Assembly (NCBI RefSeq): GCF_017876755.1
Contig: NZ_JAGIOO010000001.1
Location: 2,961,786 to 3,025,785, forward strand
Length of the DNA stretch: 64,000 nt
From: Crossiella equi
Lineage (GTDB): Bacteria > Actinomycetota > Actinomycetes > Mycobacteriales > Pseudonocardiaceae
Direction: 5' to 3'
Part shown: piece by piece, positions 35,998 to 47,693 of the stretch
How positions within the stretch are numbered: the stretch's first letter is position 1
How the letters are laid out: every line of letters starts with the position of its first letter
Made by a program: the position numbers and the translations under genes
Notes under the pieces: generated by a model
Seen by the model: only the letters and a program-made list of their open reading frames with translations
Database searches by the model: none
What the model was told of the DNA's origin: nothing

Positions 35998-36003
35998 ACA
36001 CTA
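35998..36003 (-). promoter_or_regulatory. candidate -10 box of pimB' (leaderless)
   Basis: TAGTGT on the minus strand ends 7 nt before GTG 35990. Confidence 0.5.
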
Positions 36004-36082
36004 GAGAGTTTTCGCCGTGGGTGTTGAGCCCCCCGGACGGCATTGCCCCGGGCGCGAACGGCTCGGACGACCCTCCTAGCCT

Positions 36083-36250
36083 GACGGTTCGTACGGCCTG
36101 CCCCGGTAGCCCTCAGGGTTCGCGCGGCCTGACCAGAAACCCCACGACTCGTGCGACCAGACCAAGCAACCCCACGACTCGTGCGGCCAAACCAGAAACC
36201 CCACGACTCGGACGGCCAAACCAGAAAACCCCACGACTCGTGCGGCCTCA
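36083..36250. repeat. 29-30 bp imperfect tandem repeats, left array
   Basis: About six head-to-tail units of the type GACTCGTGCGGCC-(A/T)-CCAGAAACCCCAC, 29-30 bp each with no spacers. The first units are degenerate. The array ends where the inverted-repeat element begins. Confidence 0.8.
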
Positions 36251-36622
36251 CTAGGCGTGTTGGCCGTGTGGGTACCTCGTGTTGGCACGGAGAGGACGGC
36301 CGGTTCCCCCAGGCCCGAAGGGCCGAAGGGGCGGCCTCCACGCAGGGCCAACAGGAGGTACCCACACGGCCAACACGCCCGGCCCGGGGGCGGAACGGCG
36401 CAGCCGTGAGCCCGGAGCAACCCATCAGTCCTACACCCCGGGGGGCGTTGCCCCGGGCTCACGGCTACGCCGTCTCGCCCACCGGCCGGGCGTGTTGGCC
36501 GGTCCGGTACCTCGTGTTGGCCCTCCAGGCAGGGCCACCCCTTGGCCTTCGGCCTCGGGGGAACGGCCGTCCCCTCCATGCCAACACGAGGTACCGGCCC
36601 GGCCAACACGCCTAGTCAGGCC
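36244..36622. repeat. nested inverted-repeat element (GTGTTGGCC family, copies 2 and 3)
   Basis: Three successive dyads. Dyad 1: arms 36254-36285 and 36348-36379, 32 bp with one mismatch. Dyad 2: 36395-36415 and 36453-36473, 21 bp with one mismatch. Dyad 3: 36489-36520 and 36581-36612, 32 bp with one mismatch. Arms of 1 and 3 share GGCGTGTTGGCC and GGTACCTCGTGTTGG, and the outermost GGCCT(C/G)ACTAGG also pairs across the whole element (36244-36253 with 36613-36622). No ORF or transposase lies inside. Confidence 0.85.
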
Positions 36623-36755
36623 GCACGAGCAGTGGGGTTGCCTGGTCTGGCCACACGAGCAGGCGGGTTTGCCGGTCAGGCCGCACGAACCGTCCAGTGC
36701 ACCCGGAAAGGCCGCTCGGAAGTCGGCTGTTCGGGTGTGGCCGTTCGACAGGGAA
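36613..36755. repeat. inverted-orientation tandem repeats, right array
   Basis: Three or more units of the left-array repeat in reverse orientation (GGCCGCACGAGCAGTGGGGTT type), decaying toward 36755. Together with the left array this makes the whole 36.08-36.75 kb intergenic region a large mirror structure. Confidence 0.65.
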
Positions 36756-36774
36756 CACCCACAGCGAAAACCCG

Positions 36775-38133
36775 CTAGCCGTAGGTCTTGCGCAGGAACT
36801 CCCGCCAGCCCAGCACCAGCTTCGCCCGGTCCACCCCGAGCACGTCCCGCACCATGCGGTCCTGCCCGGCGGCGTCGGTCTGCCCGGCGCGGGCCAGCGT
36901 GCGGTACAGCTCGACCAGGGCGTCCTCGCCGAAGCGGTCGGCGATGAACAGCGACAGCGACCAGGAGGACTGGTAGGCCACGTCCAGCTTGGTGCCGCCC
37001 GCCCGGAAGTCCGCGTCGGCGGGCAGTTCCAGGTTGCCGTCCTCGGCCCGCACCCGGCGGGTCAGGTCCGGAGCGGCCTCGGTGGGCGCGATGCCGCTGC
37101 CCCGGTAGCCCACGTAGTCGGCGAAGCCCTCCAGCAGCCACATGGGCGCGCCGTCGACCGTGGCCGCGCGGGCCGCCACGTGGGTGATCTCGTGCCGCAG
37201 CACCACCCGCAGCGCGCTCGCCGACAGCCGGGTCGCGGTCTTGGGGTTGAACACGATGCGGGCGCCCTCGACCTGGACCTGCTCGTGGTCCACCCGGTCG
37301 GCCAGCGCCACCGCGGCGATCGAGTCGACCGCGAACTCCGAGCCCACCATGGCCTGCAGCTCGCGCGTGGTCTCCGGCAGCACGACGACCACCCGCTGCG
37401 GCCACTCCCGGCCCCACACCTCGCTGACCGCGCGCACCGCGGCGTCCAGCTCCTTGGCCACCCGCTGCGCCAGCGCCGCGTTGGCCCGGTGGCCCAGCAC
37501 GATGCCCGCGTTGGTGGTGAGCACCTGGCAGGGCCCGAAGTCCCACGGACCGCGCCAGGTGCGGCGGCCCTGCGCCTCCAGGGCGGTGTCGGAGGTGAGG
37601 TACCAGCTGTCGCCGTAGCGGGCGAACAGGTAGCCCATGGGCCGCGAGGTGGGCACCGCGTCACCGCCGCCGAGCGCGTAGCCCAGCTCGACCTTGGGCG
37701 CGTACAGCTCCGCGGCGTCCGGGGCGTAGGCGGTCAGGCCCTGCGTGCCCAGCACCTCGGTGGGCTCGATCTGGTAGCGCCAGCTGGACAGCGGCACCCC
37801 GGCCAGGTTCACGAACAGGTTGCGCTGCGCGGTGGCGAAGGTCGAGTCGGCGTTGGGGTCCAGGGTGGAGAGGAAGGTGATCTCGTCGCGCCGCAGCAGG
37901 GCCTCGGCGCGACGGCGCAGCAGCTCGGTGACGGCCGCCGCCCTGGGCGCCTCGGCCGTGGTGGCCGGGGCCTCGGGCGGTACCGCGCGGCCGGCCGCGT
38001 CGATGCTCGAGGAGGTCGGCGACGGGCCCGCCGAGTCGGCACCGGTGGGCGTGGCCACCACGGTGAGCCCAGCGAGCATCGTGGCGGCCACCGCGGCGAC
38101 CAGCCAGCTCCTGTACCGGCTGATCCCGGACAC
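36775..38133 (-). CDS. putative secreted zinc peptidase (MA-like, HExxH)
   Basis: A 452-residue protein with an N-terminal signal/anchor helix (about residues 10-30), a Thr/Ala/Pro-rich linker, an NTF2-like stretch, and a C-terminal metallopeptidase-type domain: RHEITHVAARA (HExxH) followed by WLLEGFADYVGY, where the Glu is the probable third ligand as in gluzincins. Likely acts outside the cytoplasm; substrate unknown. GTG 38133 is preceded by -10 TACGAT. It lies immediately downstream of the riboswitch-controlled NlpC/P60 gene, with a terminator between them. Confidence 0.72.
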   Translation of the reverse strand: MSGISRYRSWLVAAVAATMLAGLTVVATPTGADSAGPSPTSSSIDAAGRAVPPEAPATTAEAPRAAAVTELLRRRAEALLRRDEITFLSTLDPNADSTFATAQRNLFVNLAGVPLSSWRYQIEPTEVLGTQGLTAYAPDAAELYAPKVELGYALGGGDAVPTSRPMGYLFARYGDSWYLTSDTALEAQGRRTWRGPWDFGPCQVLTTNAGIVLGHRANAALAQRVAKELDAAVRAVSEVWGREWPQRVVVVLPETTRELQAMVGSEFAVDSIAAVALADRVDHEQVQVEGARIVFNPKTATRLSASALRVVLRHEITHVAARAATVDGAPMWLLEGFADYVGYRGSGIAPTEAAPDLTRRVRAEDGNLELPADADFRAGGTKLDVAYQSSWSLSLFIADRFGEDALVELYRTLARAGQTDAAGQDRMVRDVLGVDRAKLVLGWREFLRKTYG

Positions 38134-39739: not shown

Positions 39740-41113
39740 TCAGACGCGGCCCAGGCGGGTGAGCAGCACCGTCGAGGGCACCGGGTGCGCGCCCCGGCGG
39801 CGCACCGAGTCGGCCACCGCACGGTCGGAGGTCACCACGACCACCGGGCGGCCCTCCGGCTCGGCGGTGACCAGGGCGCGGATCACGTCGTCGGCCAGCA
39901 CCCCGGGATCGCTGAACAGCACGCGCACCCCGCGCGGCGCGGCCGAGGGCACCGCGACCACCCCGGCCCCGTCGAAGACCAGCGTGACCTCGGCCCCGGT
40001 GCGCGCGGCCAGCACGGCCAGCTGGTGCACCAGCCGGTCACGCTGCTCGGACAGCGTCAGCTCCGGGTAGCCGGTCTTGGTGACGTTGTAGCCGTCGACC
40101 ACCAGGTGCACGGTGGGCAGCGCGAGCAGCCGGTCCAGCGCGGCGGGGTCCTCGACCCGGCCGACCGCGCCGGTGGCGGCCGTGGCACCGCGCACGGTGT
40201 CGGCGGGCCGGGGCCCGGTGCCGCCCAGCGCCAGCTCGCGGCGCAGCCCGGTGACCGCACCGGCCAGGGTGTCCACCAGCAGCCCGAGGCGCACCTCGTC
40301 GGCCTGCCGGGCCTCCCGCGCGGACTGGCGGGCCACCTCGGCCTCGGCCAGCGCCCTGGCGGCCTTGAGGCGCTCGGTCTCGGCGCGCTCCCGCTCCTTG
40401 TCGCGCTCGGCGGTGATCGCGGCGACCACCGCCCGGGTCTCGCCGCCGCCGCGCTCCAGCTCGGCCCGCGCGGCCTCGGCCTCGTCCTTGGCCTGGCGCA
40501 GCCGCACGCCCTGCTCGCGCAGCCGCTTGCGCAGCCGCTCCAGCTCGGCCTCGCCCTCCTGCCGCACGCGCTCGGCCGCGCCCAGGGCCTGTTCCAGCTC
40601 CTCGCGCAGGCGGGCCAGCTCGGCCTCCTGGCGTTCCAGGCGGGCCACGCCGGAGTCGCGCTCCCCGCGCAGCTGCGCGTCGCTGCCGCGCCGGGCGACC
40701 AGCTCCACGTACAGCGGCGCGGCGGGCTCCTCCAGCAGCAGCGCGGCCGCGGCGGAGGCCACCGGGTCGCTGGGCGCGAGCTCCAACGCGCTCGGCCGGT
40801 GCTCGCGGCACCACTGCACCACCGCGTTGCGGAAGACCGCGGACTCGCGCAGCGCGGCCACCAGCGCGCCCGCGCCCAGCTTCGCCCGCTTGGCGGGGGC
40901 GAACCGGGCGACCGGGCGCAGCGGCTGGGGGATGTCGACCTGCGCCATGGTGCCCAGTGCCTCGGCGGACAGCTCGGCCAGCCGGGCCCGCACGGGCTCC
41001 GGCAGCGCGTCGAAGCCGGGCTCGGGCTCCTCGGCCCGCGCACCGTCCACTGCGGACGGACCCGGCTCGGGGTCCGGTCCGTCGTGGCTGGTCTCCGCGG
41101 ACATGGGGAACAC
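39740..41113 (-). CDS. NYN-domain protein with coiled coil
   Basis: A 457-residue protein: an N-terminal region with many Ala/Glu (to about 130), a long coiled coil (about 135-300, Glu/Arg/Leu-rich) and a C-terminal NYN/PIN-like domain from about 325 (LVVDGYNVTKTGYPEL, VTLVFDGAG, DDVIRALV, VVVVTSDRAVAD), with the acidic residues expected of an RNase. The family includes YacP-type RNases; ribosome- or RNA-linked cleavage is plausible. GTG 41113 follows a -10 box by 7 nt; ATG 41104 is the alternative. Confidence 0.8.
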   Translation of the reverse strand: MFPMSAETSHDGPDPEPGPSAVDGARAEEPEPGFDALPEPVRARLAELSAEALGTMAQVDIPQPLRPVARFAPAKRAKLGAGALVAALRESAVFRNAVVQWCREHRPSALELAPSDPVASAAAALLLEEPAAPLYVELVARRGSDAQLRGERDSGVARLERQEAELARLREELEQALGAAERVRQEGEAELERLRKRLREQGVRLRQAKDEAEAARAELERGGGETRAVVAAITAERDKERERAETERLKAARALAEAEVARQSAREARQADEVRLGLLVDTLAGAVTGLRRELALGGTGPRPADTVRGATAATGAVGRVEDPAALDRLLALPTVHLVVDGYNVTKTGYPELTLSEQRDRLVHQLAVLAARTGAEVTLVFDGAGVVAVPSAAPRGVRVLFSDPGVLADDVIRALVTAEPEGRPVVVVTSDRAVADSVRRRGAHPVPSTVLLTRLGRV

Positions 41114-41191: not shown

Positions 41192-42115
41192 TCACGTCCG
41201 GGCAGTGCCCACCGGCTCCCGGACCCGCTCCGCCACCGGCTCGGGCACCTCGGGCACCACGAGGAACAGCCTGGTCACCGCGGTCGCGACGGCCACCAGC
41301 ACGGCCCTGGGCAGCACGCGCACCACCGGGCGGGCCAGGCCGCGCGGCAGGTCGCCGAGCAGCAGCATGTCGAAGATGCCCAGCAGGGCGGCCCTGGGCG
41401 CGTCGCGCAGCGCGGCCACCGCCTCCTCGACCACTCCGGCCAGGTACTCCCGCATCTTCTGCCGCGCGGCGTCCCGGCCGTGCATGCGGACGAACAGCCG
41501 CAGCGAGTTGAAGCTGTCCTCGGCCACGTCCGGCCCGTAGGTGCGCACGTCGTCGGCGACCTCGAGGAAGAGCATGAACGGCACGAGCAGCGAGTAGAGC
41601 GCCTCGTCGTTGCGCACGCCCTTGATGTTGTTGAGCACCCGCACCATCGCGTCGATGACCGCGGAGCGGATCACGTTCACCTCGCGGAAGACCTCCTCGG
41701 TCAGCTCGACCTCGCCGAGCTGCACGCGGCCTTCCAGGATGTAGTACCGCTCCAGCTCCTCGATGTTCCGCGCCACCCCCGCGTCCCAGGCGCGGTGGCT
41801 GCGCACCAGCTCGATCATCTCCCGTTTCCAGGAATGGTCGGTGATGGTCGAACGGCCTTCGCGCTGCGCCTGTTCGTACAGGAAGTCGCCCTTGTACATG
41901 AGCGAGTAGAACTGGATCATCAATGGCCGCACCCGCCCGGCCTCCGCCCTGGTGTAGCGGGCGTGGTCGAAGTGGTAGCCCTTCATGATCTCGATGAACT
42001 CGTTCGCGCGCTGGTGCATGAGATAGCTGATCTCGACCCGGTCGCGGCCAGCCCATTCCCCGGCGGCCCGGGCCATCGCCGCCCCGACGGCGGAGCCCGT
42101 CCGTTCTCCAGTCAT
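41192..42115 (-). CDS. tandem-paralogue family member A, terpene-synthase-like helical protein
   Basis: A 307-residue all-helical protein, last of five tandem paralogues (A-E). Shared blocks: YKGDFLYEQAQREGRSTITD (about residue 85), LERYYILEGRVQLGEVELTEE, IRSAVID, and LEVADDVRTYGPDVAEDSFN (about 210-230), followed by SLRLFVRMHGRDAA. The block DDVRTYGPD matches the class I terpene-synthase metal motif (N/D)D(L/I/V)x(S/T)xxxE except for the final D, and the N-x-L-x-L...G...A tail also matches that family. The aspartate-rich motif is only GDxxYE. Separated from B by a hairpin. SD GGAGGAAG before ATG 42115. Confidence 0.75.
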   Translation of the reverse strand: MTGERTGSAVGAAMARAAGEWAGRDRVEISYLMHQRANEFIEIMKGYHFDHARYTRAEAGRVRPLMIQFYSLMYKGDFLYEQAQREGRSTITDHSWKREMIELVRSHRAWDAGVARNIEELERYYILEGRVQLGEVELTEEVFREVNVIRSAVIDAMVRVLNNIKGVRNDEALYSLLVPFMLFLEVADDVRTYGPDVAEDSFNSLRLFVRMHGRDAARQKMREYLAGVVEEAVAALRDAPRAALLGIFDMLLLGDLPRGLARPVVRVLPRAVLVAVATAVTRLFLVVPEVPEPVAERVREPVGTART

Positions 42116-42165
42116 TTCTTCCTCCCCATTGTCCAGCAGGGCAACAGGCTATCGGGGAAAAAGAA

Positions 42166-42208
42166 GATCGCCCGGATTCCCTGGCCACAAAAGGAAATCC
42201 GGGCGATC
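42166..42208 (-). terminator. hairpin between paralogues B and A
   Basis: Perfect 13-bp stem (GATCGCCCGGATT and complement) with a 17-nt loop between two genes on the same strand; could terminate or attenuate reading into paralogue A. Confidence 0.65.
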
Positions 42209-42227
42209 CGCACTGTGGTTCTGCCGC

Positions 42228-43166
42228 CTACTTCCGCACCGCTTTCTTCCGCAACGATGCCGGGGCCGTTTCGGCGACCGGTTCCGGCATGGTCTTGGGC
42301 ACCGCGAGGAAGTGCCGGGTGAGGTGGCCAGCCAGCTTCTTCAGCACGCCGGTGGGCAGCAGGCCGAGCGCGGCGCGCACCGGCCGGGTGTTCAGGCGGC
42401 CCAGCAGCATCACCTCGTACAGCCCGAGCACGCTGCGCCGGGGCGCGCCCGCGATGAGCCCCACCGCCTCCTCGGCCAGGCCCTGGAGGTAGGCCCGCAT
42501 CCGGGGCACCGCCGCGTCCCGGCCGTACATCCGCACGAACAGCCGGAGCGCGTTGAAGGAGTCGTCCGCGCGGTCCAGCGGGTAGGAGTCCAGGTCGTCG
42601 GTGATCTCCAGGAACACCATCCACGGCTCGATCAGCCCGAACAGCGGCTCGTCGTGCGGCACGCCCTTGATGTTGTTCAGCGCGCGGCTCAGGCCGTCGA
42701 TCACCGCCGAGCGGATCACGTTGACCTCGCGGAAGACCTCCTCGGTCAGCTCGACCTCGCCGAGCATCACCTGGCCTTCCAGGACGTAGTACCGCTCCAG
42801 CTCCTCGACGCAGTGCGCGACCGTCTCGTCCCAGGCCTCGTGCCCCTTGACCAGCTCGATGAGCTCGCGCTTCCAGGTGTGGTCGGTGATGGTGGACCGG
42901 CCCTCGCGCTGCGCCTGCTCGTAGAGGAAGTCGCCCTTGTACATCAGCGCCCAGTAGTGCACCACCAGCGGGTGCACGCGCTCGGCCTCCGCCTTGGTGT
43001 AGCGGGCGAACTTGTGGTTGAAGCCCTCCATGTAGTTCGCGCAGCGCTCCGCCCGCAGGTTCATGCGGTAGGAGACGCTGATCTCGTCCCAGCCCGCGGG
43101 CCCGCCGCCGGTCGGCAGGCTCATCGCGTCGTGCACGCGCTCGTCCAGGTCAACCTTGCCCGGCAT
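42228..43166 (-). CDS. tandem-paralogue family member B, terpene-synthase-like helical protein
   Basis: A 312-residue paralogue very close to A: YKGDFLYEQAQREGRSTITD is identical in both, and both contain FREVNVIRSAVID. Its NSE-like block reads DDLDSYPLD and is followed by NALRLFVRMYGRDAA. The C-terminal third is more variable, ending in MPEPVAETAPA like the PEPVAE tails of A and E. The closeness of A and B suggests a recent duplication. The start (43166) lies 27 bp downstream of C's stop. Confidence 0.75.
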   Translation of the reverse strand: MPGKVDLDERVHDAMSLPTGGGPAGWDEISVSYRMNLRAERCANYMEGFNHKFARYTKAEAERVHPLVVHYWALMYKGDFLYEQAQREGRSTITDHTWKRELIELVKGHEAWDETVAHCVEELERYYVLEGQVMLGEVELTEEVFREVNVIRSAVIDGLSRALNNIKGVPHDEPLFGLIEPWMVFLEITDDLDSYPLDRADDSFNALRLFVRMYGRDAAVPRMRAYLQGLAEEAVGLIAGAPRRSVLGLYEVMLLGRLNTRPVRAALGLLPTGVLKKLAGHLTRHFLAVPKTMPEPVAETAPASLRKKAVRK

Positions 43167-43193
43167 GTGCTTCTCCCCTGTGGTGGCCGTCGG

Positions 43194-43931
43194 TCAGACG
43201 CTCGCCCGGCGCGCCAGCCAGGCCTTGAGCCCCGGTTCGCCGAGCTCGCGCTGCGCCCGGGTGGCGGCGGTGAGCAGGTCGTGGCGGATCTCCCGCAGCC
43301 GCGTGCCAGCCTGGTGCTCGCTGCCGGTGAGCGCGGTGTAGGCGCGGAGGAGGTTGAACCGGCCGGTGTCGTCGGTGGCGGTCCCGGCTTCGGCGAGGTC
43401 GCCGTCCAGCTGCGCCAGGCGCACCGCGGGCTCGTACCCGGCCAGCTGCCCGGCGCTCAGGCGGCGGCGCCGGAAGTTGGCCACCACCTTGACCACCGCG
43501 AGCAGCTCGCCCGCCCGCAGCCGCCCGATCTGCTCGGCCGCGGCCTCGGTCAGCGGCACCGTCCCGGACCGCACGGCCTGGCTGAGCACGTGGGCGTGCC
43601 GCAGGTCGTAGAGGCACTTCTGCACGTCGGTGTCGTAGACGGTGTGGCTGGTCAGGATCGCCTGGATCTGGGCGCGCCAGTCGCCGCCCGGGTCCCGCCA
43701 GCCCCGCTCGCACAGCGCGAGCTGGTGGCACAGCACCGGTGTGATGACCCGGCTCTCCTCCGGGCCCGCGCCGAGCAGCTCCCAGTACCGGGTGCCCGCC
43801 GCGGCGCGCAGCCTCGCCTCGGAGGCGGTCTTGTCCCGGTAGGACACCGTGCTGTCCAGCCAGGTGCGCGCCTGCTGGGCACCGTGCACGCGCTCGGCGA
43901 CGCGGCCCGCGGCGCTCTTCCGCCCGAACAT
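43194..43931 (-). CDS. tandem-paralogue family member C, shortened and motif-degenerate
   Basis: A 245-residue protein sharing the family's N-terminal SYRDKTASE... pattern and the NLLRAY...TG segment near residue 190 but lacking both metal-type motifs: no GDxxYE and no DDLxS block (only LDGDLAEAG). It ends about 60 residues before its relatives would. It fits tightly between D and B (10 and 27 bp), so it is likely expressed with them. It may be a non-catalytic partner, or a decaying copy. Weak overall similarity; the family link is inferred. Confidence 0.6.
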   Translation of the reverse strand: MFGRKSAAGRVAERVHGAQQARTWLDSTVSYRDKTASEARLRAAAGTRYWELLGAGPEESRVITPVLCHQLALCERGWRDPGGDWRAQIQAILTSHTVYDTDVQKCLYDLRHAHVLSQAVRSGTVPLTEAAAEQIGRLRAGELLAVVKVVANFRRRRLSAGQLAGYEPAVRLAQLDGDLAEAGTATDDTGRFNLLRAYTALTGSEHQAGTRLREIRHDLLTAATRAQRELGEPGLKAWLARRASV

Positions 43932-43941
43932 GGTGGCCCCC

Positions 43942-44868
43942 TCAGCCCGCGACGCTCAGCAGCCGCGGCGCGGCCGGGTCCGGCAGCAGCGCGGGCAGCG
44001 GGGCGGTGGCGATGTCCGAGCGCGCCGCGGTGCTCTTGGCCAGCGGCAGCAGCACGGCCCGGGGCAGGCGGCGGGCCAGCGGGGCCAGCACGTCGATGCC
44101 CGCGTCCGGCAGGCCGGAGAGCAGCAGCTTGCGCAGGGTCGAGGTGCGCGCGCCCTGGAGCTGGTCCAGGCAGCGGCGCACCCAGCGGCGGCGGAAGTCC
44201 TCGACCTCGGCCAGCGCGCGCTCCGGGCCGTGCAGGCGGTGGAACAGGCGGATGGTGTTGAAGCTGTCGTCGGCCACGTCGCCCGCGTAGTCGTCGATGT
44301 CCACGCGCAGCTCCATCAGCAGCGTCCACGGCCGCAGCATGGCCAGGTACTCCTCGTCCACCTCCTGCCCGCTGAGCAGGTACAGCAGCCGGTCCAGGGT
44401 GAACACGTCGGAGGAGCGGATGGACAGGACGTCCTCGATGACCCGCTGGCTCAGCTCGACCTCGCCGAGCACGATCCGGCCCTCGGTGATGAAGTAGCGC
44501 TCCAGGTCGGCCAGGCCCGCCCGCACCTCGGGGGTGAGCACGCCGTAGGAGTCGACCAGCTCCTCCAGCTCGGTCCTCCAGGAGTGGTCGGTGATCGTGG
44601 CGCTGCCCTGCCGCTGGGCGGCCTCGTAGAGGTAGTCACCCCGGTACATCACCGCGGTGTAGTGCCGGATGAACGGCTGCATCAGCTCCCACCGGTCGCG
44701 GTCGAAGCCGAGCGCGTAGGCCCCGCCGACGGTGTCGCGCAGCAGCGCCTTGCTGGCCTTGACGCTCTCCCGGTAGCTGACCGAGAGGTCCTGCCAGCGG
44801 GCGGGCGTCTGTTTGGGCAGCATCCGCTCCTTGAGGGCGGCCAGGCTGGCCATGTGGTTGGTGCTCAT
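43942..44868 (-). CDS. tandem-paralogue family member D, terpene-synthase-like helical protein
   Basis: A 308-residue paralogue starting MSTNHMASLAALKERM. Family blocks: YRGDYLYEAAQRQGSATITD, LERYFITEGRIVLGEVEL, IRSSDVFTLDRLLYLL and VDIDDYAGDVADDSFNTIRL, then FHRLHGPERA. The NSE-like block here is VDIDDYAGD, less canonical than in B or E, but the N-x-I-R-L tail is kept. It lies 32 bp after E and 10 bp before C. Start ATG 44868. Confidence 0.73.
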   Translation of the reverse strand: MSTNHMASLAALKERMLPKQTPARWQDLSVSYRESVKASKALLRDTVGGAYALGFDRDRWELMQPFIRHYTAVMYRGDYLYEAAQRQGSATITDHSWRTELEELVDSYGVLTPEVRAGLADLERYFITEGRIVLGEVELSQRVIEDVLSIRSSDVFTLDRLLYLLSGQEVDEEYLAMLRPWTLLMELRVDIDDYAGDVADDSFNTIRLFHRLHGPERALAEVEDFRRRWVRRCLDQLQGARTSTLRKLLLSGLPDAGIDVLAPLARRLPRAVLLPLAKSTAARSDIATAPLPALLPDPAAPRLLSVAG

Positions 44869-44900
44869 GCTCGTTGAACCTCTTCCCCAGATCTCTCGCG

Positions 44901-45851
44901 TCAGTTCGCCGCGCCCGTTCTGTCCCCAGGACGACTCGGCCTGGGTCCCTTCTCGGCCACCGGTTCCGGCACCTCCCGCAGCAGCAGCCCCAGCTCGGCG
45001 CGCATCAGCCTCGGCGCCAGCCGGCGCAGCGCGGCCTCGGGCAGCAGCCGCAGCACCCACTGGGCGGGCGCGGACTCCAGCGGCAGCAGCGTGCTGCTGC
45101 CCAGCACCCGCAGCAGGTTCTCCTTGCCCGCCCGGGCCAGGCCCGCGCACAGCTCGTCCACCACGGCCGCCTCCAGCGCCCGCAGCTGTGCCACCGCCCG
45201 GTCCGCGCCGTACCGGAAGACCATGAGCCGCAAGGTGTTGAAGCTGTTCGCGGCCACGTCGGCCTGGTAGGAGTCCAGGTCGTCGACGATCTCCAGCAGC
45301 AGCCACAGCTTGCGCAGCAGCCACTCGTACTCGGGGTCGTGCGCCTGCCCGCGCGCCATGCCGGTGAGGCGGAGCAGGCCGAAGAAGTCGCTGGAGCGGA
45401 TGCGCAGGACATCGGCCAGCACCTCGTCGGTCAGCTCGACCTCGCCGAGCAGCACCTCGCCCTCCAGGCGGTAGTACCGCTCCAGGTCGTCCAGCACCTC
45501 CTCCAGCTCCGGCACGTACAGCCCGTGGCCCTGGGCCAGCTCGCGCATCCGCCGCTTCCAGGCGCCGTCGGCGACCGTGGAGCTGCCCCGGGTCTGCGCG
45601 TGCTCGTAGGCGGCGTCGCCCACGTAGACCAGGGCCAGCCACTGCACGATCAGCGGTTGCAGCAGCCCGTACTCGGCGGGGGTGCAGCCCAGCATCCGCC
45701 GGTAGTCCTCGCCGCCCTTGAGCCGCAGCACCTGGGTGCCCTTGAGCGTGGCCGTGTACGGCACGGCCGGTTCGCCCCACGCGGGGTGCTGGGGCGCGCG
45801 GTAGACGATCTCGGTGATCCGGTCGAGGGATGTGTCGCGTCGGAGGGGCAC
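44901..45851 (-). CDS. tandem-paralogue family member E, terpene-synthase-like helical protein
   Basis: A 316-residue protein, first of the five-gene set. Blocks: YVGDAAYEHAQTRGSSTVAD, LERYYRLEGEVLLGEVEL, IRSSDFFGLLRL, LEIVDDLDSYQADVAANSFN and TLRLMVFRYGADRA. DDLDSYQAD is the best match of the five to a class I terpene-synthase NSE motif, and the spacing from the aspartate-type region (about 135 residues) is normal for those enzymes. GTG 45851 is preceded by a perfect dyad. No prenyl-diphosphate synthase or P450 is nearby. Confidence 0.75.
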   Translation of the reverse strand: MPLRRDTSLDRITEIVYRAPQHPAWGEPAVPYTATLKGTQVLRLKGGEDYRRMLGCTPAEYGLLQPLIVQWLALVYVGDAAYEHAQTRGSSTVADGAWKRRMRELAQGHGLYVPELEEVLDDLERYYRLEGEVLLGEVELTDEVLADVLRIRSSDFFGLLRLTGMARGQAHDPEYEWLLRKLWLLLEIVDDLDSYQADVAANSFNTLRLMVFRYGADRAVAQLRALEAAVVDELCAGLARAGKENLLRVLGSSTLLPLESAPAQWVLRLLPEAALRRLAPRLMRAELGLLLREVPEPVAEKGPRPSRPGDRTGAAN

Positions 45852-45956: not shown

Positions 45957-47693
45957 ATGAACGCCGACCACCGGCCCGGTGCCGTCCAGCAGCAGCTGTC
46001 CTTCGAGCAGCTGGGCACACCGCTGTCCGAGGTCACCTTCGTGGTGGTCGACCTCGAGACCACCGGCGGCCGCGCGGACGGCGACGCGATCACCGAGTTC
46101 GGCGCGGTCAAGGTGCGCGGCGGCGTGCTGCTGGGCGAGTTCGGCACACTGGTCGACCCGGAGCGCGGCATCCCGCCGGAGGTGGTGGCGCTGACCGGCA
46201 TCACCGAGGCCATGGTGCGCACCGCGCCCAAGCTGAGCGAGGTGCTGCCCGCGTTCCTGGAGTTCGCGCGCGGCGAGGTGCCCACGGTGCTGGTGGCGCA
46301 CAACGCCCCGTTCGACGTGGGCTTCCTCAAGGCGGCGTGCCGGCGGTTGGGCTACGAGTGGCCCGCGGTGCAGACGCTGTGCACGGTCCGCCTGGCCCGC
46401 CGCACGCTCTCCCGCGAGGAGGCGCCGAGCTGCCGCCTGTCCGCGCTGGCGGCCCTGTTCGGCGCGGCGGTCACCCCCAACCACCGGGCGCTGGACGACG
46501 CGAAGGCCACGGTCGACGTGCTGCACGCCCTGCTCGAACGCGTGGGCTCGCACGGCGTGCACTCGCTGGAGGAGCTGCTGGGCTTCCTGCCCGAGGTCAC
46601 CCCGGCGCAGCGCCGCAAGCGGGGCCTGGCCGCGGGCCTGCCCGAGACCCCGGGTGTGTACCTGTTCCGGGGCCCGCGGGAGGAGGTCCTCTACGTCGGC
46701 ACGGCCACGAACCTGCGCCGCCGGGTGGGCCAGTACTTCACCGCGGCCGAGACCCGGGCCCGCGTGCGCGACATGGTGGCCTTCGCCGTCCGCGTCGACC
46801 ACGTGGAGTGCGCCCACCCGCTGGAGGCCCAGGTCCGGGAGCTGCGCCTGCTGGCCGCCCACCGCCCGCGCTACAACCGCCGCTCCACCCAGCCGCACCG
46901 GGCCTGGTGGGTGGTCCTCACCGACGAGGCCTTCCCGCGCCTGTCCGTGGTGGCCAAACCCCGCGCGGGCGCGCTGGGCCCGTTCCAGTCGAAGTCGGCG
47001 GCCGACCTGGCGGTGGCGGCGATCCACGAGGCCATCCCGCTGCGCCAGTGCACCCAGCGCATCCCGGCCCGGGGCGCCCAGGGCCGCCCGTGCGTGCTGG
47101 CCGAGATGCAGCGCTGCGCGGCCCCGTGCGCGGGCCGCCAGTCCACGCAGGACTACGCCCCCGCGGTCACCCGCCTGCGGGCCCTGGTCGAGGGCCGCGA
47201 CGACTCCCCGGTGCACGACCTGCTGGCCCAGCTGACCGACTACGCCACCACCGAACGCTTCGAGCAGGCGGGCCTGCACCGCGACCGCGTCCTGGGCCTG
47301 GTCAAGGCTCTGGACCGGGGCCAGCGCCTGACCTCCCTGGCCGCCATCCCGGAGCTCATCGCGGCCCGGCCGGACGGCACGGGCGGCTGGTGGTTCGCGG
47401 TCGTCCGCCACGGCAGGCTCGCCTCCGCGGGCGGCGCGCCCCGGGGCGTGGCCCCCATGCCGGTGGTCGAGCTGCTGGTGAAGTCCGCGGAGACGGTCGT
47501 GCCCGGGGAGGGCCCACTCCGCGGCGCCTCCCCGGAGGAGACCCGGGTGGTGCTGCGCTGGCTGGAGCAACCGGGCACCCGCCTGGTCCGCACCACCGAC
47601 AACTGGCACTCCCCGGCCCGCTCCGCCGCCCGCTGGCGCTCCTGGCTCACGCGGGCGGAGTCCGCCCGGCAGGGCTACGCCGGGGCGGACTGA
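45957..47693 (+). CDS. DEDD exonuclease/GIY-YIG endonuclease fusion (Rv2191-like)
   Basis: A 578-residue protein. The N-terminal DnaQ-type 3'-5' exonuclease (about 25-195) has VVVDLETTGG, HNAPFDVGFL and NHRALDDAKATV. A UvrC/Cho-type GIY-YIG domain follows (about 220-310) with GVYLFRG...VLYVGTATNLRRRVGQYF, then a cysteine-bearing region (CVLAEMQRCAAPCAG) and a UvrB-binding-like helical pair. The architecture and position next to trpD/qcr genes match Rv2191. Role: DNA repair, cutting and trimming damaged strands, inferred from domains. Confidence 0.92.
   Translation: MNADHRPGAVQQQLSFEQLGTPLSEVTFVVVDLETTGGRADGDAITEFGAVKVRGGVLLGEFGTLVDPERGIPPEVVALTGITEAMVRTAPKLSEVLPAFLEFARGEVPTVLVAHNAPFDVGFLKAACRRLGYEWPAVQTLCTVRLARRTLSREEAPSCRLSALAALFGAAVTPNHRALDDAKATVDVLHALLERVGSHGVHSLEELLGFLPEVTPAQRRKRGLAAGLPETPGVYLFRGPREEVLYVGTATNLRRRVGQYFTAAETRARVRDMVAFAVRVDHVECAHPLEAQVRELRLLAAHRPRYNRRSTQPHRAWWVVLTDEAFPRLSVVAKPRAGALGPFQSKSAADLAVAAIHEAIPLRQCTQRIPARGAQGRPCVLAEMQRCAAPCAGRQSTQDYAPAVTRLRALVEGRDDSPVHDLLAQLTDYATTERFEQAGLHRDRVLGLVKALDRGQRLTSLAAIPELIAARPDGTGGWWFAVVRHGRLASAGGAPRGVAPMPVVELLVKSAETVVPGEGPLRGASPEETRVVLRWLEQPGTRLVRTTDNWHSPARSAARWRSWLTRAESARQGYAGAD

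Follow-up and report, generated by a model that had tools for sequence, protein, structure and literature searches.

Crossiella equi (Pseudonocardiaceae) carries five consecutive genes on the minus strand of contig NZ_JAGIOO010000001.1 (assembly GCF_017876755.1). They lie in the 64,000-nucleotide stretch analysed here, hereafter the window (positions 2,961,786 to 3,025,785 of the contig), and all coordinates below count from its first letter unless another locus is named. The genes encode proteins of 245-316 residues and occupy 41192-45851 in the order E-D-C-B-A: gene E (44901..45851, 316 residues), gene D (43942..44868, 308 residues), gene C (43194..43931, 245 residues), gene B (42228..43166, 312 residues) and gene A (41192..42115, 307 residues). 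An earlier note on this DNA had described them as tandem paralogues resembling divergent class I terpene synthases. The layout is confirmed, and the likeness is supported by the predicted fold of B and C, by a weak and unique match to the synthase Sat1646, and by the isoprenoid neighbours of distant relatives. But what might such an array be doing? On balance we lean towards a new family whose members have the fold of class I terpenoid synthases, and in which A, B and E would ionise prenyl diphosphates while C and D would serve as non-catalytic partners or regulators.

Five paralogues outside the family databases

Are the five proteins related to each other? A, B, D and E are pairwise 36-57% identical, with shuffle z-scores of 22-46. 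C shares 24-28% identity with these four (z 7-11), and a profile built from A, B, D and E only retrieves it with an E-value of 1.6e-17 against 20,000 shuffled decoys; all five are true paralogues. In the tree, A clusters with B with weak support (81/58) and E falls in a clade with single genes from two other Crossiella genomes. A convincing match at E-value ≤10 in Pfam, NCBIfam or PHROGs was found for none of the five (best E-value 0.07; D was scanned from a later start). The earlier note had proposed a search with hidden Markov models of terpene synthases as a check on the likeness, and on this point the Pfam profiles gave neither a terpene-synthase match nor any other convincing one. A description of the family was not found in a literature search, which covered few subscription journals.

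Predicted fold and putative metal site

The class I terpenoid-synthase α fold had been named beforehand as the test of the idea. Fold models cover B (AlphaFold2) and C, and both predictions agree with it: for each, the 50 PDB matches shown in the VIA-align list are isoprenoid synthases, a few of which we take to be such from their abbreviations. C, which has lost the aspartate-rich motif and the NSE ligands, retains the fold in its model. Model B has two helices (142-152 and 154-167) with a break directly after Arg152, and in model C the helix matching G is continuous from 129 to 153. According to the available part of PMC9018054, the effector triad of class I synthases sits at the corresponding helix break.

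Does the sequence point the same way? Searched against 177,635 PDB sequences, a 19-member family profile gave a single match at E-value ≤10, to Sat1646 (E-value 0.04), over the 47 residues around NDLASYERD to which the similarity is limited; a 17-member profile found the same protein at 0.094. The profile of the five window proteins gave unrelated weak PDB matches only and did not retrieve Sat1646, so that distant relatives are needed in the profile. Sat1646 (PDB 7E4N/7E4O) is described in the available part of PMC9814573 as a bacterial class I isopimaradiene synthase using copalyl diphosphate. When the family was aligned by hhalign with 25 canonical synthases, NSE fell on NSE with a score of 28.1 and a probability of 5%, against 15.9 for a reversed decoy and at most 17.2 for 60 column-permuted decoys. 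These 25, from Crossiella and its relatives, had been selected by their NSE motif (11 of 26 with an NSE match and 14 of 20 further stretches); those left out were near-duplicates or had no NSE motif. Alignment with 19 squalene/phytoene synthases (PF00494, a Pfam family without a match among the window proteins) scored 16.0, inside the column-permuted decoy range.

A, B, D and E carry the GDxxYE motif and the NSE-like block reported in the earlier note: GDFLYE (41873-41890) and DDVRTYGPD (41528-41554) in A, GDFLYE (42918-42935) and DDLDSYPLD (42573-42599) in B, GDAAYE (45603-45620) and DDLDSYQAD (45258-45284) in E, and in D a retained GDYLYE (44623-44640) followed by VDIDDYAGD (44278-44304), which is without the first- and fifth-position ligands. 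Neither motif is complete in C. Two of the note's figures need correction. The NSE-like block begins at residue 188-190 and not 215-230, and the Asp of GDxxYE precedes it by 111 residues and not by about 135. All four proteins have the Arg that the note placed 38 residues ahead of the block, and over 37 aligned rows the distance is 38 residues in 32, 40 in four and 37 in one. The diphosphate-sensor Arg of class I synthases is located at the break between helices G1 and G2, some 46 residues ahead of NSE. The sensor of Sat1646 is Arg220 in helix H, whereas in the array family the Arg stands before the point where the helix matching G is broken. The strict motif, (N,D)DXX(S,T)XXX(E,D) as given in the available part of PMC9814573, is present in three of the five window genes (A, B and E) and not in D or C; elsewhere in Crossiella it is found in types E, F and AB and in two X proteins (types described below).

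In a 19-member alignment, from which C-type proteins, the D orthologues of four other Crossiella and a fused domain were excluded, D79, E83 and D198 are conserved at ≥90% and D191 and R152 are invariant (B numbering). A di-iron or ferritin-like reading was dropped because His is missing from the invariant and nearly invariant columns. Which residues could then hold metal? In Sat1646, Mg A and C are held by Asp88 and Asp92 of EDWQVD and Mg B by NDLASYERD (same part of PMC9814573). D79 and E83 of GDFLYE match D88 and D92 by motif position, the profile match stopping short of this region. Because the two residues are conserved and match Mg ligands of Sat1646 by position, GDxxYE would seem to be a DxxxE form of the aspartate-rich motif and not a remnant of it. 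In the mechanism that we propose, A, B and E would probably be diphosphate-ionising synthases. Asp79 and Glu83 would bind two Mg ions and Asp190, Ser194 and Asp198 (B numbering) a third, as the matching residues of Sat1646 do. Arg152, directly before the break in the helix matching G, would act as the diphosphate sensor for a prenyl or bicyclic prenyl diphosphate and trigger ionisation. C and D would be non-catalytic paralogues that have been kept, most simply as partners or regulators of A, B and E.

Several observations weigh against this mechanism. Pfam terpene-synthase models match neither the five window proteins (E-value ≤10) nor 17 family members (E-value ≤1). DDxxD, which belongs to the class I definition, is absent from both aligned motif stretches in all 37 rows, with GDxxYE instead. 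The C-type and most D-type members have no aspartate-rich motif, and the spacing from this motif to NSE is shorter than the 135 residues of Sat1646 (published numbering). Among nine loci outside Crossiella, the strict NSE-type motif is found at one (L082, in our numbering of loci). At the other eight, and in a solo Crossiella copy, the first and/or fifth position is altered and D191 and D198 are kept; judged from these sequences, either the metal site is formed differently in these members or some of them are without catalysis. Apart from the Pfam result, the same points speak for a non-catalytic binding or carrier family, in which the terpenoid-synthase fold would persist because it holds prenyl diphosphates, or prenylated products, on behalf of other enzymes. 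Yet a pure carrier hardly needs both motifs, and conservation at D79/E83 and D191/D198 is ≥90% in the 19 members, at positions matching the reported Mg ligands of Sat1646. We thus regard a carrier as unlikely.

How far, then, is the family from known synthases? BjKS, the class I ent-kaurene synthase of Bradyrhizobium (PDB 4XLX), has 10% identity over aligned residues, and the array family differs from it in having no Pfam terpene-synthase match. With canonical PF19086 synthases the family shares the fold, the NSE-like block in the corresponding helix and the N-x-L-R-L stretch that follows. It differs from them in having no PF19086 match and no DDxxD, in the 38-residue distance from the Arg to NSE, and in tandem arrays that mix members with and without motifs. 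Because DDxxD and a Pfam match are both missing, we do not file it as a canonical terpene synthase; within the superfamily it is better seen as a new family, which may work like a class I synthase.

Heteromeric prenyl diphosphate synthases combine catalytic and non-catalytic subunits. Could the array encode same-fold prenyltransferases of this kind, acting in chain-length or acceptor prenylation? The motif pair is Asp-rich/NSE-like and not two DDxxD, the pair that marks trans-isoprenyl diphosphate synthases and is not seen in the motif stretches of the 37 rows. In addition, the sole sequence match is a terpene synthase, and the clusters of two relatives contain a separate polyprenyl synthase. 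Prenyltransferases therefore seem to us quite improbable.

Relatives outside Crossiella and their isoprenoid neighbours

The genome searches scored limited first-look candidates, and their counts are lower bounds. At least seven genomes matched in a set of 60 (five Crossiella, two rejected), at least nine of 390 in a family-level set (five Crossiella, one rejected, three accepted) and at least six of 394 in a class-level set (the window genome, one rejected, four accepted). One genus of the class gave at least three of 295, two of them new, and two further sets (35 and 22 genomes) gave the already known member only. In a phylum-wide sample one of 396 genomes matched, the window genome itself. 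A tblastn search of three queries against plasmids and a first contig scan with B as query found no match. The candidates dropped were L006/L037 (a low-complexity frame of the window genome), L011/L038 and L012/L039 (weak profile matches, inspected by eye), L048/L070 (reads as a TetR regulator) and L080/L085 (acyl-CoA-dehydrogenase-like). A family without a Pfam, NCBIfam or PHROGs match is added to the terpenoid-synthase superfamily. It is sparse in actinomycetes, and because of this distribution and the missing family model it is likely overlooked by profile-based genome mining.

Isoprenoid genes lie beside six of the nine loci outside Crossiella, a raw count given without a random-locus background. 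In L067, dxs, ispG, ispH and a flavoprotein gene are directly upstream, and L068 has the same gene order (dxs and ispG by Pfam, the next two by eye). L082 is preceded by a NUDIX gene reading as isopentenyl diphosphate isomerase. In L069, L083 and L166 the family member is beside, or fused with, a Pyr4-type cyclase, and a polyprenyl synthase is confirmed in L069 and L166. No isoprenoid gene was seen by eye in L081, L084 and L167. The fusion is a 513-residue protein (L166:10341-11882, minus strand) that joins a degenerate family domain (E-value 2.4e-8) to a Pyr4-type transmembrane cyclase and stands upstream of a better-kept family member on the same strand. The L166 cluster also holds two Rieske proteins, a TauD-type protein and a PPDK-type protein besides its polyprenyl synthase. 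The Pyr4-type cyclases recall the bacterial Pyr4-like transmembrane cyclase clusters (zigralone and others) of PMC13307353; the zigralone cluster has a UbiA-like prenyltransferase, and an array-family protein is not named in the available part of that paper.

Might the array be a multi-subunit terpene synthase, in which catalytic paralogues and pseudo-synthases of the same fold assemble with one another? In the L166 relative a pseudo-synthase would be fused to a membrane cyclase of the Pyr4 type (class II-like) beside the better-kept member. We offer this more far-reaching idea as a speculation with a small chance of being right. If true, it would describe a class I/class II assembly evolved independently of the plant-type fused enzymes. 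The fusion gives a handle on the coupling of soluble and membrane cyclisation, and the Crossiella arrays are a natural test of whether terpene synthases use dedicated pseudoenzyme partners.

Arrays across Crossiella and the borders of the locus

All five Crossiella genomes examined contain an array of this family. Its content is E-D-C-B-A in the window, X-E-D-C-F-AB in two genomes and X-D-C-F in two others, so compared with other species the window lacks X and F and has A/B doubled. Both motifs occur in A, B and E of the window, in E, F and AB of two species, and in X and F of the remaining two; motif-bearing and motif-less members coexist in each of the five arrays. C is without the aspartate-rich motif and the first NSE ligand in all five species. 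D has a damaged NSE block in every one of the five and retains GDxxYE in the window only, having lost it in the four other Crossiella. Two species have a degenerate X.

Are C and D simply on their way out? The genes might be independent terpene synthases that arose by tandem duplication, with C and D left as decaying copies without a role. The variable array content fits this, as do the ratios of non-synonymous to synonymous substitution rates (dN/dS), rough values from pairs of close species with the window left out: 11 family pairs give 0.13-0.49, mostly above three control pairs (0.10-0.21), the highest value belonging to the degenerate X of two species. However, the most degenerate clades, C and D, are the only ones present in five of five species, the four C and D pairs (0.13-0.39) have a similar range to members with both motifs (0.14-0.43), and the degenerate domain of L166 is fused to a cyclase beside a better-kept member. 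Decay without a role is for these reasons a doubtful account. The retention of degenerate copies suggests instead a structural or regulatory role for C and D.

Each of the five arrays adjoins the same NYN-type gene and has an exonuclease gene at its other end. In the window these borders, both assigned by eye, are the NYN-type gene at 39740..41113 (minus strand) and the divergent gene at 45957..47693 (plus strand, 578 residues), which reads as DEDDh exonuclease/UvrC-like. The NYN gene was found in 13 of 17 genomes, five of them Crossiella, and in all eight genomes of other genera that hold it the divergent exonuclease gene is directly beside it; the array is therefore probably an insertion in the Crossiella lineage.

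Within the array the gaps E-D, D-C, C-B and B-A measure 32, 10, 27 and 112 nucleotides. The last contains, at 42155..42207 on the minus strand, a 16-bp hairpin followed by a U-rich tract, resembling an intrinsic terminator. Its folding energy is -27.5 kcal/mol (z -4.67), a stability equalled in none of 200 shuffles, and the output of a simple consensus terminator scan did not include it. Because of this hairpin and U tract, gene A may form a separate transcription unit.

Three further observations concern the surroundings. The window genome has 13 PF19086 canonical terpene synthase domain matches, so that, the array aside, C. equi is likely to be a rich producer of terpenes. A solo Crossiella member with a hydrophobic N-terminus occurs at L035:8064-9020 and L036:8345-9328. 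Pfam identifies the neighbours of the L036 copy as an Rce1-like CAAX protease, a nitroreductase and a YcaO cyclodehydratase, and L035 has the same genes as judged by eye; this is possibly a peptide natural product cluster. Lastly, a nested inverted repeat of about 780 bp lies at 36001-36778 of the window; each of its arms carries 30-nucleotide tandem repeats, and its outer pair is 25 bp long.
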